Source: Candidatus Parcubacteria bacterium
GTDB taxonomy: Bacteria > Patescibacteriota > Patescibacteriia > PEXW01
Reading direction: 5' to 3'
DNA length: 44,879 nt
Assembly (NCBI GenBank): GCA_003597955.1
Contig: QZJU01000021.1
Location: 1 to 44,879 of the forward strand
The position numbers and the translations under genes were made by a program. Shown in pieces: positions 913-32,913 of the stretch. The notes below the pieces were generated by a model. It saw nothing but the letters and a program-made list of their open reading frames with translations, was not told where the DNA came from and made no database searches. Each line of letters starts with the position of its first letter. Position 1 is the stretch's first letter.

Positions 913-949
913 TTATTTCCCTTTTCAAAGAGTTTTTGATTTTCACATA

Positions 950-978
950 ACCCTAACAAAAAACCCGCAGGCAGTCAA
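950..978 (-). promoter_or_regulatory. Putative promoter TTGACT-N17-TAGGGT for the 130-912 gene
   Basis: -35 at 973-978 and -10 at 950-955 read on the minus strand; the -35 overlaps the edge of an inverted-repeat element. Confidence 0.45.
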
Positions 979-2839: not shown

Positions 2840-6214
<3,375 letters not shown>

Positions 6215-9257: not shown

Positions 9258-9620
9258 TTAGCTGGTGACTTGCGCCGTGGTTCTTAATACGAAGTTGACG
9301 ATTGCCCAAGAAATTAAGACAACCACTAAGCCGATTGCGGCCGAAGAAATGATTTTTTTGGCCGTGTCAACCTTGTCTTCATTGCCGCCCGCGGTCAGCC
9401 AGATAAAGCCGCCGTAAAGGATCATGATGACTGCGATTAGACCCAAGAGGCCCAAAACGAAAGTAATAATGTTAAGCACCGTTTGCTTCAGATCTGTGGA
9501 AGTAAAGCCGATTGAGCCGGCGAAGGAGGTGTCAAAAGAGAGAGCTAAGGCGCTCATTGGTAAAGCCAAGACACCCAGTGTCGCAGCCGAAGCGATTAAA
9601 TGTTTTTTGGTTAGTTTCAT
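9258..9620 (-). CDS. T4SS pilin-like small membrane protein (paralog 3)
   Basis: 120 aa 'SFDTSFAGSIGFTSTDLKQTVLNIITFVLGLLGLIAVIMILYGGFIWLTAGGNEDKVDTAKKIISSAAIGLVVVLISWAIVNFVL'. Confidence 0.8.
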   Translation of the reverse strand: MKLTKKHLIASAATLGVLALPMSALALSFDTSFAGSIGFTSTDLKQTVLNIITFVLGLLGLIAVIMILYGGFIWLTAGGNEDKVDTAKKIISSAAIGLVVVLISWAIVNFVLRTTAQVTS

Positions 9621-9669: not shown

Positions 9670-9740
9670 AGCCTAACTGATTTTGCTTAAAAGTCAATGT
9701 TTATGGCGGTTTAGTATAAGCTTTTTAATAAAAATGTCAA
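9670..9740 (-). promoter_or_regulatory. Tandem putative promoters upstream of the pilin-like cluster
   Basis: Minus strand P1: TTGACA (9735-9740)-16-TATACT (9713-9718). P2: TTGACT (9692-9697)-16-TAGGCT (9670-9675). Confidence 0.55.
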
Positions 9741-27165: not shown

Positions 27166-28452
27166 TTAAGCGTCAGAATTTAACCAGTAGCTTTGCAAAT
27201 TCCGAGACCGATTGGGTTTTCGAAGTTTGCGCAAAGCCTTTTCTTTAATCTGCCGGACTCTTTCGCGCGTAAGACTAAAGCGCGCGCCGATTTCTTCCAA
27301 AGTCAGGGCTACTTCTTGGTTTAGGCCAAAGTACAGACTAATAACCTCGGCTTCCCGTGGGGTTAAAGTATCCAAGACGCAAACGACTTCTTGGGTTAAA
27401 CTAGTGCGCAATGCCGGTTTATGAGGCGATACTGTTTTTTCGTCAGGGAGGATATTGGATAAAGACTCATCACCATCTTCGGTTACCGGCGCATCCAATG
27501 AAATTGCGGACTTGTTCAGTTCCATAGTCATTACGACTTCTACTTCGGCAAGCTCCACGGCTTGGGCGACTTCTTCCACCGAAGCCGCGCGCCCCAGAAT
27601 TTGTTCAATTTCAGCTTTGGCTTGGTTGATTTTGGTCAGAGCGCCAACTCGGTTTAGGGGAATGCGCACGGTCCGGGAGTTTTCCGCCAAGGCCGTTAAA
27701 ATGCTTTGGCGAATCCACCAGACGGCATAAGAAATAAATCGGAAGCCACGGGTTTCGTCGAATCTTTTGGCAGCCTTGATCAACCCCAGATTGCCTTCAT
27801 TGATTAAGTCAGCTAAATCCAGGCCCCGGTTTTGGTAATACTTAGCCACGGAAACCACAAAGCGAAGATTGGCTTGGATCAAACTCCATTCTGCCAGCCG
27901 GTCGCCTTGGCGGATTGATTCTGCCAGCCGGATTTCTTCGGCTTGCGTTATCAGTGGAATTTGACCGATTTGCCGCAGGTAGATATCCAAGGATTGTCCT
28001 TCACTGGCGATTGCCAGAAATTTCCTTTTGGTTTTCTCAGCGTCAGCCCGATTGGACACGGCTAGCGTATCCTGAAGGTCGAGCTGAAGGTTGCTGAAAA
28101 CTGGGGCAAAGAACCACCAGACGAAAATTTCCAAGACTTCCCAAAAAAGCGCGGTCGGCAGAAGCGTGGCTTTGATTTTCCAGTCTCTTGGCACCAGCTG
28201 ACAAAACTCTGACCATGCCCAGGTTTTGGGCTGACCATTGAAAGGAAACAAGTTCAGCAGCCAAGGCCTTTCGCCGGCGATTTGCCAGAACCGATCTTCG
28301 TTAATTTCTTTGACCAGCGACGGGATTTTCTGAATGTTTTCGGAATTTAAGTTGACCGCGATGTTGTTGCGCTGACAGAAATTAAGCAGCTCTGTCGCGT
28401 CGCAAATCTGCATTTGCTCCAGCAGCAAGCGTAAAAACTTGAGCCCGGTCAT
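27166..28452 (-). CDS. RpoD-like sigma-70 factor with non-standard N-terminal domain (cluster gene E)
   Basis: Regions 1.2-4.2: 'DIYLRQIGQIPLITQAEEIRLAESI', 'DLINEGNLGLIKAAKRFDETRGFRFISYAVWWIRQSI', 'LTLEEIGARFSLTRERVRQIKEKALRKLR'; about 145 residues before region 1.2 do not look like region 1.1. Confidence 0.9.
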   Translation of the reverse strand: MTGLKFLRLLLEQMQICDATELLNFCQRNNIAVNLNSENIQKIPSLVKEINEDRFWQIAGERPWLLNLFPFNGQPKTWAWSEFCQLVPRDWKIKATLLPTALFWEVLEIFVWWFFAPVFSNLQLDLQDTLAVSNRADAEKTKRKFLAIASEGQSLDIYLRQIGQIPLITQAEEIRLAESIRQGDRLAEWSLIQANLRFVVSVAKYYQNRGLDLADLINEGNLGLIKAAKRFDETRGFRFISYAVWWIRQSILTALAENSRTVRIPLNRVGALTKINQAKAEIEQILGRAASVEEVAQAVELAEVEVVMTMELNKSAISLDAPVTEDGDESLSNILPDEKTVSPHKPALRTSLTQEVVCVLDTLTPREAEVISLYFGLNQEVALTLEEIGARFSLTRERVRQIKEKALRKLRKPNRSRNLQSYWLNSDA

Positions 28453-28473: not shown

Positions 28474-29310
28474 TTACACCCGTGTCAAATTGGATTTTGA
28501 TGCACTTTGGAAGAAATTCAGCAAGCGCGCATAAATTATCGGCAAGATGCCAATTCGCTTGGCCTGCGTCGCAATGTCGTTCGTGGCCGCCTGGCAAAAA
28601 AACTCCGACATCAAGCAGTTGCGCTGTTTGCAGAAAGTTTCGATCTGGCGCAAAGCATCGCTGCCAATCCATAAGCCGTCGAATTGCTTGAGTAATTCCT
28701 CAAAAATTCCTTCGGAAATGCCCAGCGCGCGAGCTTCGGTTCCAATTTTTTGGTATTCGACTATGCGGTGGAAAATTTGTGGCAAGGTGGTATTGTGTTC
28801 CAAGCAATAATGCTGCAGACTCTCGGCGATTTCCGGCCTAAGCGCCAAATTTCGAATTTTTACAGGAGCTTGGCCGGCCGAGGTTGGTTGCTTGTCGCGG
28901 ATTTTTAGGACTTTTAGTTCTTCGCCCGCATTTTGCCAGAGAAAAAAATCCCAGGCCTGCTGGAGCTTAAGCCAATTTGGCCGGGGACTGGTCTTAAAAA
29001 AGCTTGGCGGCAAAGTTTTTTTAAGACCCTGCAAATTTGTTTCACCTCGGCTTTTTAGTTTTTCCAGTAGCGTCAAAGCCCAGTTGTGTTTTTTTACGTA
29101 TTGCCAAAAATCCCGTGCTGAAAGTTTTTGGGCCTTAAGCTCAACTGGCGGCCCAGAACAGGCCAGCAGATTCGCAAACCAAACGCAGTCTTTCAAGAAC
29201 GCCCAGAGGGCTTTTTCCGAAAAACTGGCCGGGTCCGGGAAACGGGCTTTTAGCTGGCAAAAGTAAAACCAGACCGAAGGTCTGGAAATTTGGTTTTTTA
29301 GAGTTTTCAC
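28474..29310 (-). CDS. Uncharacterised protein sharing an N-terminal domain with the neighbouring sigma factor (cluster gene D)
   Basis: 278 aa; 'SVWFYFCQLKARFPDPASFS...DFWQYVKKHNWALTLLEKL...WLKLQQAWDFFLWQNAGEELKVLKI' aligns by eye with gene C residues 12-145. Confidence 0.7.
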   Translation of the reverse strand: MKTLKNQISRPSVWFYFCQLKARFPDPASFSEKALWAFLKDCVWFANLLACSGPPVELKAQKLSARDFWQYVKKHNWALTLLEKLKSRGETNLQGLKKTLPPSFFKTSPRPNWLKLQQAWDFFLWQNAGEELKVLKIRDKQPTSAGQAPVKIRNLALRPEIAESLQHYCLEHNTTLPQIFHRIVEYQKIGTEARALGISEGIFEELLKQFDGLWIGSDALRQIETFCKQRNCLMSEFFCQAATNDIATQAKRIGILPIIYARLLNFFQSASKSNLTRV

Positions 29311-29372
29311 CTTATATCGCTCCCAATTTTGAATTGTTAAACAACAATTTTTGTTCGCTTTTTATTAGACCC

Positions 29373-29401
29373 AACCTACTTTAAAAACCCTTTAAAGTCA
29401 A
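29373..29401 (-). promoter_or_regulatory. Putative promoter of D-E: TTGACT-N17-TAGGTT
   Basis: -35 at 29396-29401, -10 at 29373-29378 (minus strand). Confidence 0.5.
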
Positions 29402-29427
29402 CTTCGCCCAAGTCAAAAACAAAAACT

Positions 29428-29464
29428 GTTAGCTTGCTTTGCTTTTAGCAAATTTTTAGCTAAC
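29428..29464 (-). terminator. Terminator after cluster gene C
   Basis: Minus strand GTTAGCTaaaaaTTTGCTaaaAGCAAAgcaAGCTAAC then AGTTTTTGTTTTTG. Confidence 0.8.
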
Positions 29465-30770
29465 GGTTGGATAAAGAACGTGGAGGCAAAGGCGTTTTTT
29501 TGAAATCCCAGCCGCCCTGGCCATCGGGTTGGGGCACAGGAAATCCGAATTGGTCATACATCAAACAGCGAAGTATATGAATGGCGCGGGTATGAATTTG
29601 GGAAACGCGAGATTCGCACAACTTTAGCAATCTGCCGATCGCTTTCAGGCGAAGCTCGTGCCAGTAATAATACCTAATCACGGTTGCCTGCTGGGGACTA
29701 AGCTCATTGGCAATCGCGGTTTTTAAAAATTCGTAAATCTTTTGGCGGTCAATGGTTTCCAAAAGCGTGGGTGTCAGCAAATCCTCAATTAAATCAATCC
29801 TTTCGCGCTTATCGTCTTCGCTCCAAACCCCTTCGTTCAGCGAATGCATAACACCGCTGTAGTGGCAATCTGCCAACATTTTCTGCAGGTCTTTAAGCTC
29901 CACCCCCAAAGTCCGGGCGAGCTTTTCAGAACTGGACGATTTGCCGAATTTTTGTTCAAGTTCGCGAATTTTGTTTTGCAATTTCCGATTTTGAGATTTT
30001 ACCCCCCGCGGAACCCAATCCAGCTCTCGTAGGTAATCCAAAATCTCGCCCCGAATCCGATAGGTGGCGTAAGTTTCAAATTTTACGCCAAGCTCTGGAT
30101 TATATTCGTCCAGCGCTTTGTAAAGCCCCAGAAATCCAACTTGAACAAGATCCGCTAATTCAGTTTGGGGCGGAAAGCCTAAAATCATGCGGCCGGCCAA
30201 GTTTTTGACCAAAGGCAGGTAATATCGGCCAAAGGCTTTTTTCACCTCGTTGCGCAGCGGCCCTTTTGGGCATCTTGCAAAGTAATGAAATTTTAAACCT
30301 GGCGGCAAAAACCCCCTGACAGTCTGCGGGTAATATTTTCCGTCATCGACCAGGATTTTAAAACGCGCGAATTTTTCCGCCGTTAACTGCCAAAAGAAAA
30401 ACTCCAAGGCCTGGTTAAATATGTTCCAGTGTTTGCGGCTGTGCAGGTAAAAGTACGCGTCAGGTAGCAGACGCTCAAGATCTTCCGTTAGAATCAAGCC
30501 ATTTTGCTTTTCGGTTTCTTCCAAAAATTCCAGGCACCATTCATGCTTTTTGGCATAAAGCCAAAAATCTTTCATCGACATGATTTTCGTCGGTGTCAGG
30601 GTGCGACCGTCGCCCGATGTGAGCAAAGTTTTTAACCAGTCGGTTTTTCTGACCCGGGGCCAGAAATTATTTGGGGAATAACTTGAGACATCAGGAAAAA
30701 GTTTTTTTAATTCCTCAAAGAAAAACCAAACGGAAAAATGTCCGTTTTCGGAAAACTGACCCATCTCCAC
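29460..30770 (-). CDS. FliA/WhiG-like sigma factor with novel N-terminal domain (cluster gene C)
   Basis: 'LPLVKNLAGRMILGFPPQTELADLVQVGFLGLYKALDEYNPELGVKFETYATYRIRGEILDYLRELDWVPRGVK', 'LSPQQATVIRYYYWHELRLKAIGRLLKLCESRVSQIHTRAI'. Confidence 0.9.
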   Translation of the reverse strand: MEMGQFSENGHFSVWFFFEELKKLFPDVSSYSPNNFWPRVRKTDWLKTLLTSGDGRTLTPTKIMSMKDFWLYAKKHEWCLEFLEETEKQNGLILTEDLERLLPDAYFYLHSRKHWNIFNQALEFFFWQLTAEKFARFKILVDDGKYYPQTVRGFLPPGLKFHYFARCPKGPLRNEVKKAFGRYYLPLVKNLAGRMILGFPPQTELADLVQVGFLGLYKALDEYNPELGVKFETYATYRIRGEILDYLRELDWVPRGVKSQNRKLQNKIRELEQKFGKSSSSEKLARTLGVELKDLQKMLADCHYSGVMHSLNEGVWSEDDKRERIDLIEDLLTPTLLETIDRQKIYEFLKTAIANELSPQQATVIRYYYWHELRLKAIGRLLKLCESRVSQIHTRAIHILRCLMYDQFGFPVPQPDGQGGWDFKKTPLPPRSLSNR

Positions 30771-30831
30771 CTCCTTTTTTGTCTGGTTGTTTGTTAAAGT
30801 CCGATTTTCGGGTAGGAGTTTTGTTTAAATT

Positions 30832-30860
30832 AACCTAACTTAAAAACTTCCAAAGGTCAA
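30832..30860 (-). promoter_or_regulatory. Putative promoter of gene C: TTGACC-N17-TAGGTT
   Basis: -35 at 30855-30860, -10 at 30832-30837 (minus strand). Confidence 0.5.
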
Positions 30861-30957
30861 CTCCGTACAAATATACCGAGATTCGTCCGCTCCAGGCACC
30901 CGTGGCGCCTTCCGGTCGCAATGACAATTACGACAACCACTTTTTCCTAAAATAAAT

Positions 30958-30983
30958 ACCCCGCTTTTTTAAAAAAGCGGGGT
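30958..30983 (-). terminator. Terminator after cluster gene B
   Basis: ACCCCGCTTTTTTAAAAAAGCGGGGT; minus strand continues ATTTATTTT. Confidence 0.75.
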
Positions 30984-30991
30984 TTAAAGGT

Positions 30992-31816
30992 TTAACTTTT
31001 CTGTATCGCCCGGTGTAGGCGAAGATACTGTATAGGATCATTGGCCGTAAGCACGCCCTGTTCAAACAGATATTGGGCGACCTGGAGCAAATCCGTATCT
31101 TTCTCGGTTTCCAAGTCGACTAACAATTGCATAGGTTGGACATTGCGTTGGTTGCAGAGTTCCATAAACTTCTGGTATTGCTCTGAACTTAAGCCCCATT
31201 GGGACGGTCCTGGCTGATTAGTTTGGGCCAGTCCAGTCGGTCCAGCACTTTTGTTGGTAGCTCCGGATTTGTGACCCTTGCCGACTGGCGCAATGTTCCA
31301 TTTTTTTCGCCACTGCCCAATATCGAAAGGCGATAAGGAATAATTATAAGGTTCGGTTGCCAGTTGCTGGCTTAAAGCCCGGTCACTGCCGGTCTGCATC
31401 AACAGCTGCCGAAAAGCCACTCTGGCGAATTCTTCAGAATTAAACCTGCCGACAAAATTCTGCATGGCTTTAGCTACCTTGCTTAAAGGTCTTGGCTTTT
31501 TTGTCTTGGCCCCGGAAGGCTTTAACAATTTTGCCAATTCCCCAGTAAAGCCCAGGCTGACAAATTCGGCTTGGTGCGCATTTACCCATTCGCGCAGCCG
31601 GTTTAGCTTCACGCCAAACTGCCTGGCCACCCGGCGCCAAGAATTTTTTGAAGCCCTGTATAGCTTCATAATTTCATTGACGGTTAAACCGACATTGCCG
31701 TTGTCCAAAAGCCGGGATTCGGCCCGGGTTTTGGTTTCGGGCTTTACCGAGCGAGGGTTTATGTTCCGAGCTTCGAGCATTTGCCTAAACCAAAGCCATT
31801 CATAATTGTTTCCCAC
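30992..31816 (-). CDS. Uncharacterised HTH-like protein (cluster gene B)
   Basis: 274 aa; 'LTVNEIMKLYRASKNSWRRVARQFGVKLNRLREWVNAH'; SD AAGGAGG upstream. Confidence 0.65.
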   Translation of the reverse strand: MGNNYEWLWFRQMLEARNINPRSVKPETKTRAESRLLDNGNVGLTVNEIMKLYRASKNSWRRVARQFGVKLNRLREWVNAHQAEFVSLGFTGELAKLLKPSGAKTKKPRPLSKVAKAMQNFVGRFNSEEFARVAFRQLLMQTGSDRALSQQLATEPYNYSLSPFDIGQWRKKWNIAPVGKGHKSGATNKSAGPTGLAQTNQPGPSQWGLSSEQYQKFMELCNQRNVQPMQLLVDLETEKDTDLLQVAQYLFEQGVLTANDPIQYLRLHRAIQKS

Positions 31817-31830
31817 TTTTCCTCCTTGGT

Positions 31831-32784
31831 TTAGGCGTTTTTAGACTTCGGCCGTCTGATGGCCGGGTGTAGTGCGGGTATGCCTGCGAGTTTGAGCAGG
31901 CCACTGAATTCACGCTGGCTGATTTTGAAACCTCTGATGCCCTTGTCGCGGACCACGAATTTTTCCATCGCCTTTGCGGCTTTGGTTTGGTTGCCGGTCA
32001 GTTGATAAGTTTGCTTCAGCCATTGCACGGCTCCTGAATTGCTACCCGTAGCTTCGGCTAGGGCCTGGAATTTCGGCATGGCAAAAAGCCTGTCCGGTCC
32101 GGTTAAGCCCCTTCTGGCTCGCGGCTTTTTGGGTTCTGTTCCGCGTCCGGACGCAACTTTGGTTTTTTGCTGCCGTGCGATTTCATCTTTTGGCCTTTGG
32201 CCTCTGCCCAGACGAAAATTCAGATTGCGCTGGAGAATGCTGCGCAAGGTTCCTGGTTTGATATCTACGCCGAGCTTCTGGCTAAGATATTCAGCTACCT
32301 GCGAATACGTGCCATGCTTGGCAAAAAGCTCCTTGGCAGTTATGGTGTTTTTCACAAAAGCCAAAATCTGTTGAGTCATCGAAGTTGGGCTGGGCCTGCG
32401 ATTCGACCTGGCTTTTTTGAAACGTGCTTTGGGAATTCGCGGTTTTCGGGTTTTGGGTCTTTTGGGTTTTCGCTTCAGGGTTTTGGCGCCGAAAAGCGTG
32501 GGCAAGGCCGGCCAGCCTTTTCTTTCCGAAAAGCTGGTCATAAATTCCAACAAATGAATGCATTCCTCGGGTCCGGCGGTTTTTTGTAAAGCCTCGGGCA
32601 CATTGCCGAAAATCACTTCTGGCGTAAAGCCTCCGGCTTCGCCTGCCGCGGCAACCAAATCAATGACCCAAGGGTGAGCTTGGACAAAAACATCGAAATC
32701 GAATGCCGGCAAGCTGCCAGTGGCGACTCCCAGCAAAACCTGAAACAGGTTAAGGTTGGCAGAATTTTCCCTTACTTTAGCCAT
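31831..32784 (-). CDS. Uncharacterised basic HTH-like protein (cluster gene A)
   Basis: 317 aa; 'ITAKELFAKHGTYSQVAEYLSQKLGVDIKPGTLRSILQRNL'; SD AAGGAGG upstream. Confidence 0.65.
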   Translation of the reverse strand: MAKVRENSANLNLFQVLLGVATGSLPAFDFDVFVQAHPWVIDLVAAAGEAGGFTPEVIFGNVPEALQKTAGPEECIHLLEFMTSFSERKGWPALPTLFGAKTLKRKPKRPKTRKPRIPKARFKKARSNRRPSPTSMTQQILAFVKNTITAKELFAKHGTYSQVAEYLSQKLGVDIKPGTLRSILQRNLNFRLGRGQRPKDEIARQQKTKVASGRGTEPKKPRARRGLTGPDRLFAMPKFQALAEATGSNSGAVQWLKQTYQLTGNQTKAAKAMEKFVVRDKGIRGFKISQREFSGLLKLAGIPALHPAIRRPKSKNA

Positions 32785-32884
32785 TTTTCCTCCTTATGGG
32801 TTTTTGGCCTATTTTTTAAGGCTTGCTTAATTTTTTAATTTGCTTTTTCGATTTTTAAGGTTTAGGCAAAAATGCCTTCGGCTA

Positions 32885-32913
32885 ACCTTAAAATTTTTTG
32901 GAAAACTTGTCAA
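32885..32913 (-). promoter_or_regulatory. Putative promoter of A-B: TTGACA-N17-TAAGGT
   Basis: -35 at 32908-32913, -10 at 32885-32890 (minus strand); divergent from ruvA. Confidence 0.45.

Follow-up and report, generated by a model that had tools for sequence, protein, structure and literature searches.

A putative second promoter class around a sigma factor gene cluster in a Kerfeldbacteria-related bacterium

What marks the promoters of a small sigma factor gene cluster in a reduced bacterial genome, and which sigma factor reads them? The cluster lies in the window analysed here, the first 44,879 nucleotides of contig C2 in a genome (G000) of 989,930 bases in 21 contigs that is 98.5% complete. 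By UvrB comparison, the nearest named relatives of G000 are Candidatus Kerfeldbacteria (78% and 61%; another bacterium reaches 70%), which probably places it in the Patescibacteria/CPR. An earlier note on this DNA had described a motif, TTGACN-N17-T(A)AGGNT, before each transcription unit of the cluster, and had suggested that it marks an alternative holoenzyme and that the cluster regulates itself. Transcription regulation in ultra-small uncultured bacteria seems to be little known, and we found no promoter map or promoter study of Patescibacteria/CPR in the literature searched. A simple codon-usage caller gave 907 genes in G000, with approximate start positions. The family set consists of G000, its sister species G001, and G002 and G003 from another genus; G027 belongs to a different family. 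Class II promoters are defined here as TTGAC-N17-TA(A/G)GNT followed by AA at what would be about +1/+2 (TARGNT-N6-AA). The genes and sites concerned are as follows.

31831..32784, minus strand: gene A, a weak helix-turn-helix match, with a relative in G002
30992..31816, minus strand: gene B, a weak helix-turn-helix match, beginning 14 bases past A
30958..30983, minus strand: terminator-like hairpin after B, from a consensus scan only
29460..30770, minus strand: gene C, a sigma factor of the FliA/WhiG type that carries an additional N-terminal domain
28474..29310, minus strand: gene D, which lacks sigma domains and is a relative of C's N-terminal half
27166..28452, minus strand: gene E, an RpoD-like sigma factor that has regions 1.2, 2, 3 and 4
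32877..32913, minus strand: promoter of A-B, TTGACA-17-TAAGGT-N6-AA (-35 to -10 at 32913-32885)
30824..30860, minus strand: promoter of C, TTGACC-17-TAGGTT-N6-AA (-35 to -10 at 30860-30832)
29365..29401, minus strand: promoter of D-E, TTGACT-17-TAGGTT-N6-AA (-35 to -10 at 29401-29373)
942..978, minus strand: class II promoter of the NTP transferase gene at 130-912, TAGGGT-N6-AA
2020..2056, minus strand: class II promoter of the gene at 1145-1993, TAGGCT-N6-AA (-35 to -10 at 2056-2028)
9670..9697, minus strand: TTGACT-16-TAGGCT before the gene at 9258-9620, spacer 16

Because the gap between A and B is 14 bases and that between D and E is 21 bases, we take A-B, C and D-E to be the transcription units. 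Protein C matches WhiG (1.1e-39) and FliA (3e-37) in regions 2-4, with the RIRG..LD.LR..DWVPR signature, and has its N-terminal half in common with D at 38% identity. It is an instance of a FliA/WhiG-type sigma factor in a small, Kerfeldbacteria-related genome, and a search for related loci with C as query found none. E, with its four regions, exists beside a separate housekeeping RpoD encoded on contig C5, as is the case for Group 2 sigma factors. The -35 helix residues of E are as in RpoD, and its version of WWIRQAIT has Leu instead of Thr, at a position that contacts -12 in E. coli sigma70. E was found in three genomes of the family (G000, G001 and G002) and in G027; it was not found in G003, which is 83% complete and in which RpoD was likewise not found. 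Gene D of G001 (L105:9198-10006) is split across two reading frames, through either assembly error or decay. In another genome of the same taxonomic class, G036:C2:105297-108078 holds three RpoD-like sigma genes in tandem.

The sites quoted in the earlier note at C, D and A, and at 2056-2028 and 9697-9670, are all present in the sequence. The first of its sites outside the cluster (TTGACT-17-TAGGGT) exists as well, but at 978-950 rather than 973-950. The -35 TTGAC, the spacer near 17 and the T1, A2 and T6 of the -10 are those of a sigma70 promoter. None of the cluster promoters (TAGGTT, TAAGGT) has a TATAAT-like -10 middle, and TATAAT itself is rare across G000. The G001 orthologue of the NTP transferase gene has the promoter TAAGGT-N6-AA. 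The site at 9697-9670 has no downstream AA, G001 is without the site, and a TATACT alternative promoter lies just upstream; this site is probably outside class II. The gene at 9258-9620 encodes a small membrane protein of 120 aa with a close paralogue at C12:2230, and both genes have TATA-type promoters. A 23S rRNA match at 2844-6210 (minus strand) spans 3367 bases, more than the 2925-position model, and the gene therefore probably holds one or more insertions.

Are these sites promoters, and are they peculiar to the cluster? TTGAC-N18-TAGGNT occurs 16 times in G000, as against 0 occurrences of the reversed pattern, and TTGAC-TANNNT has its maximum at spacer 17, with 151 sites (142 non-coding) versus 21-46 at unrelated spacings. 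By these counts the sites are real promoters. The earlier note had named a lack of genome-wide enrichment before starts as the outcome that would refute it; the motif is instead enriched upstream of genes. The motif does stand before the cluster units, but it is not confined to them. Indeed, because the -10 middle is degenerate throughout the genome (position 3 is A in 37%, T in 30%, G in 21% and C in 12%), TAGGNT is one TANNNT form among many, accounting for 15 of the 142 non-coding spacer-17 sites, and is not special to the cluster. It is also found at the trigger factor promoter, where the G001 orthologue retains it, and it is enriched in G017 (15 versus 1 control), a genome with a single RpoD-like sigma factor, but there without AA. 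The TAGGNT share correlates positively with G+C (rho 0.56), and G000's family sits above the trend. The TAGGNT/TATANT ratio was rejected as a marker of the sigma cluster, because G+C confounds it and it is also elevated in G017, G025 and G004. The distribution of TAGGNT sites along the chromosome is suggestive of clustering only (p about 0.01 once close pairs are removed).

A second mark lies downstream of the -10. When the flanks of TA(A/G)GNT sites in G000 were scanned against the rest, the top difference outside the -10 was an A 8 bases downstream (68% versus 21%); with coding matches included, AA at 7-8 bases follows 16 of 36 TA(A/G)GNT sites and 13 of 115 others (p=4e-5). Because this AA arose from a position scan, the pattern was fixed and tested in other genomes. 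In the four family genomes (G000-G003), AA follows 36/90 TARGNT sites versus 1/62 TATANT sites (p=4e-9). With the discovery genome left out, the counts for G001, G002 and G003 are 20/54 versus 1/43 (p=1.6e-5), and for G002 and G003 alone 12/33 versus 0/28 (p=2e-4). Across 53 other genomes there is no difference (77/662 TARGNT versus 157/1573 TATANT, p=0.26), and G027 has a weak bias (6/30 versus 1/28) despite having E. Among 381 genomes of the same taxonomic class, G000 (9), G002 (6) and G003 (5) rank highest for the full TAGGNT motif; G001 has 2, and most of the others have 0, the best of them 4. Within G000, AA follows 10/22 TAGGNT sites with TTGAC versus 28/288 without it. The effect is weak at spacers 16 and 18 in G000, and pooling the three spacers gives 18/52 for TARG and 4/32 for TATANT. 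A-rich leaders farther downstream are also commoner after TARG. An extended TG before the -10 was considered as a class mark and dropped, the difference being insignificant. On these comparisons, a distinct class II inside the TANNNT promoters of G000's family is well supported, and this two-class structure is the new and best supported part of the analysis.

The cluster promoters carry the same mark in more than one species. In G000, AA is present at 3/3 cluster promoters (A, C and D) versus 18/214 sites (p=5e-4), where C and D are to be counted as about one event because their promoters may be descended from a single duplication. All six cluster promoters found in G000, G001 and G002 are TAGGTT or TAAGGT plus AA: G001 has TAAGGT-N6-AA before D, and G002 has TAGGTT-N6-AA before C and TAAGGT plus AA before A. 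A distinct motif is thus common to the candidate sigma's own units. In G001 and G002 the cluster adjoins ruvA, and the spacers differ. The G001 locus that holds ruvA, D and E is without C, yet class II is present in that genome. In G027, A-like and B-like genes adjoin E and uvrB, and TAAGGT without AA precedes the A-like gene. The sites before E are TATAGT in G002 and TACAGT in G027; in G000 and G001, E follows D within a class II unit. A further sigma gene in G001 (G001:C71, L106), a relative of the one at C17:123317, has a TAAGGT-N6-AA promoter with spacer 16, and the promoter of its G000 relative is TAATGT.

Which genes belong to each class? Class II in G000 includes genes for an NTP transferase, a CDP-alcohol phosphatidyltransferase, an M50 peptidase, a STAS-domain protein, an SPFH protein (TAGTCT) and an ACP-synthase-III-like protein, as well as pyrF and several unknowns. 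The TAT/TAC class includes rpsF, rpsL, rpsO, tuf, typA, infA, nusA, greA and similar genes, with most translation genes. The names trigger factor and pyrF, and those of the TAT/TAC class, were read by eye. Orthologues of G002 and G000 keep their class: wherever a TARG site could be compared with a G000 promoter, its partner is TA(A/G)(G/T), and 0 of about 12 TAT/TAC sites pair with TARG. Between G000 and G001, all kinds of -10 middle are conserved (69-77% per position versus 52% in spacers), with some TAAG/TAAA and TATA/TAAG exchanges. Since every -10 middle is conserved between these two species, conservation of GG alone proves nothing, and it was rejected as proof of a special class.

Who, then, reads class II? 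The explanation that we favour has two promoter classes in G000's family, which have TTGAC as the -35 and a spacing of 17 bases in common. Class I, with a -10 led by TAT/TAC (for example, TATACT, TATTTT or TACAAT), would be read by the housekeeping RpoD. Class II would drive A-B, C and D-E plus about 15-20 other, mostly single-gene units, and sigma E would read or share it, such that in G000 and G001 the cluster would be under its own feedback. E itself would be under RpoD in G002 and G027, because a TATAGT- or TACAGT-like promoter precedes it, with class II targets downstream. We infer the class II start position, the reader and the feedback from sequence. E is favoured because it is RpoD-like and occurs in G000, G001, G002 and G027, and because C is of the FliA/WhiG type and absent at the G001 locus; that E is the likeliest reader, with feedback in G000 and G001, has in our judgment a little less than an even chance. 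We are more tentative about a dedicated second sigma regulon in this Kerfeldbacteria-related, reduced-genome lineage, in which E would read TTGAC-N17-TARGNT-N6-AA and control the FliA-type sigma, HTH-like proteins, the STAS protein and membrane/lipid genes, with cluster feedback. Equally tentative is the corollary that the motifs of E and RpoD would be alike except for the middle of the -10 and the bases transcribed first. The reading in the earlier note is thus supported in part: an alternative holoenzyme fits the AA-linked sub-class, which orthologous genes retain from one genus to another, but TAGGNT alone is unspecific, as trigger factor and single-sigma G017 illustrate. Autoregulation, with a predicted reader, is consistent with the fact that the cluster promoters found in three species are all of class II.

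The main rival, and a serious one, is a single RpoD acting on tuned promoters. RpoD alone would read all promoters, TANNNT would be the sole requirement, and class II would consist of sigma70 promoters tuned and kept gene by gene; this is possible, although we hold it with clear reserve. The same reserve applies to its account of the marks, by which GG or AG in the -10 would lower melting and the AA at the start would make a weak or nucleotide-pool-sensitive promoter. It fits the identical -35 and spacing, the -10 middle that is degenerate everywhere and conserved in all its forms, not GG only, between sister species, the increase of the TAGGNT share with G+C, and the enrichment of TAGGNT in single-sigma genomes. 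Housekeeping promoters of Streptomyces, moreover, are commonly of the TTGAC/TANNNT form (PMC6742748). A single RpoD is harder to square with a TARGNT-AA link that is missing from 53 other genomes, with the position of G000's family above the G+C trend and with classes that stay separate between genera. Reading by E, for its part, has to accommodate TAGGNT at trigger factor and in G017, the weak AA effect at spacers 16 and 18 and in E-bearing G027, the conservation of all -10 middles between G000 and G001 together with their exchanges, and the failure to find E (or RpoD) in incomplete G003. It is unlikely that RpoD needs a DNA-binding helper, perhaps A or B, to set the sequence preference of class II: A and B are weak helix-turn-helix matches and themselves class II genes, and their counterparts adjoin E in G027, but no additional conserved site was seen within 40 bases upstream of the -35, and what sets the class apart is the -10 and the start, both contacted by sigma and core. 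It is highly improbable that sigma C, which the earlier note had named along with E, reads class II. C is located in the cluster behind a class II promoter of its own, and a scan of G000 for sigma28 promoters (TAAA-N15-GCCGATAA) as its targets gave no enrichment, which would leave it room for another motif. However, C groups with FliA/WhiG sigmas, which are known to read TAAA...GCCGATAA promoters and not TTGAC...TANNNT, and G001 has class II with no C at the locus.

If reading by E holds, sequence comparison alone would have revealed, in an ultra-small uncultured lineage, a further class of promoters together with the genes it serves and a candidate sigma factor. The middle of the -10 and the bases transcribed first would jointly mark that class, and its specific motif would be directly testable with purified proteins.

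How does this arrangement compare with known systems? TTGAC/TANNNT is a usual pattern of mapped housekeeping promoters in Streptomyces (PMC6742748), and the promoters described here are like that degenerate sigma70 promoter in their -35, their spacing and the three fixed -10 bases (T, A and T); they differ in having a TARGNT sub-class tied to a start AA in one family only. The FliA/WhiG sigma28 family resembles C in regions 2-4 and in the signature, whereas C carries an N-terminal domain shared with D, and sigma28 promoters are not enriched in G000. Group 2 (RpoS-like) regulons, with promoters overlapping RpoD's, likewise have an extra RpoD-like sigma factor whose -35 helix is the same and whose -10 is a variant, and sigma feedback on its own operon is common in such systems. 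By comparison with them, the reader proposed here is a candidate, and the cluster adds a FliA-type sigma factor and weak helix-turn-helix proteins.
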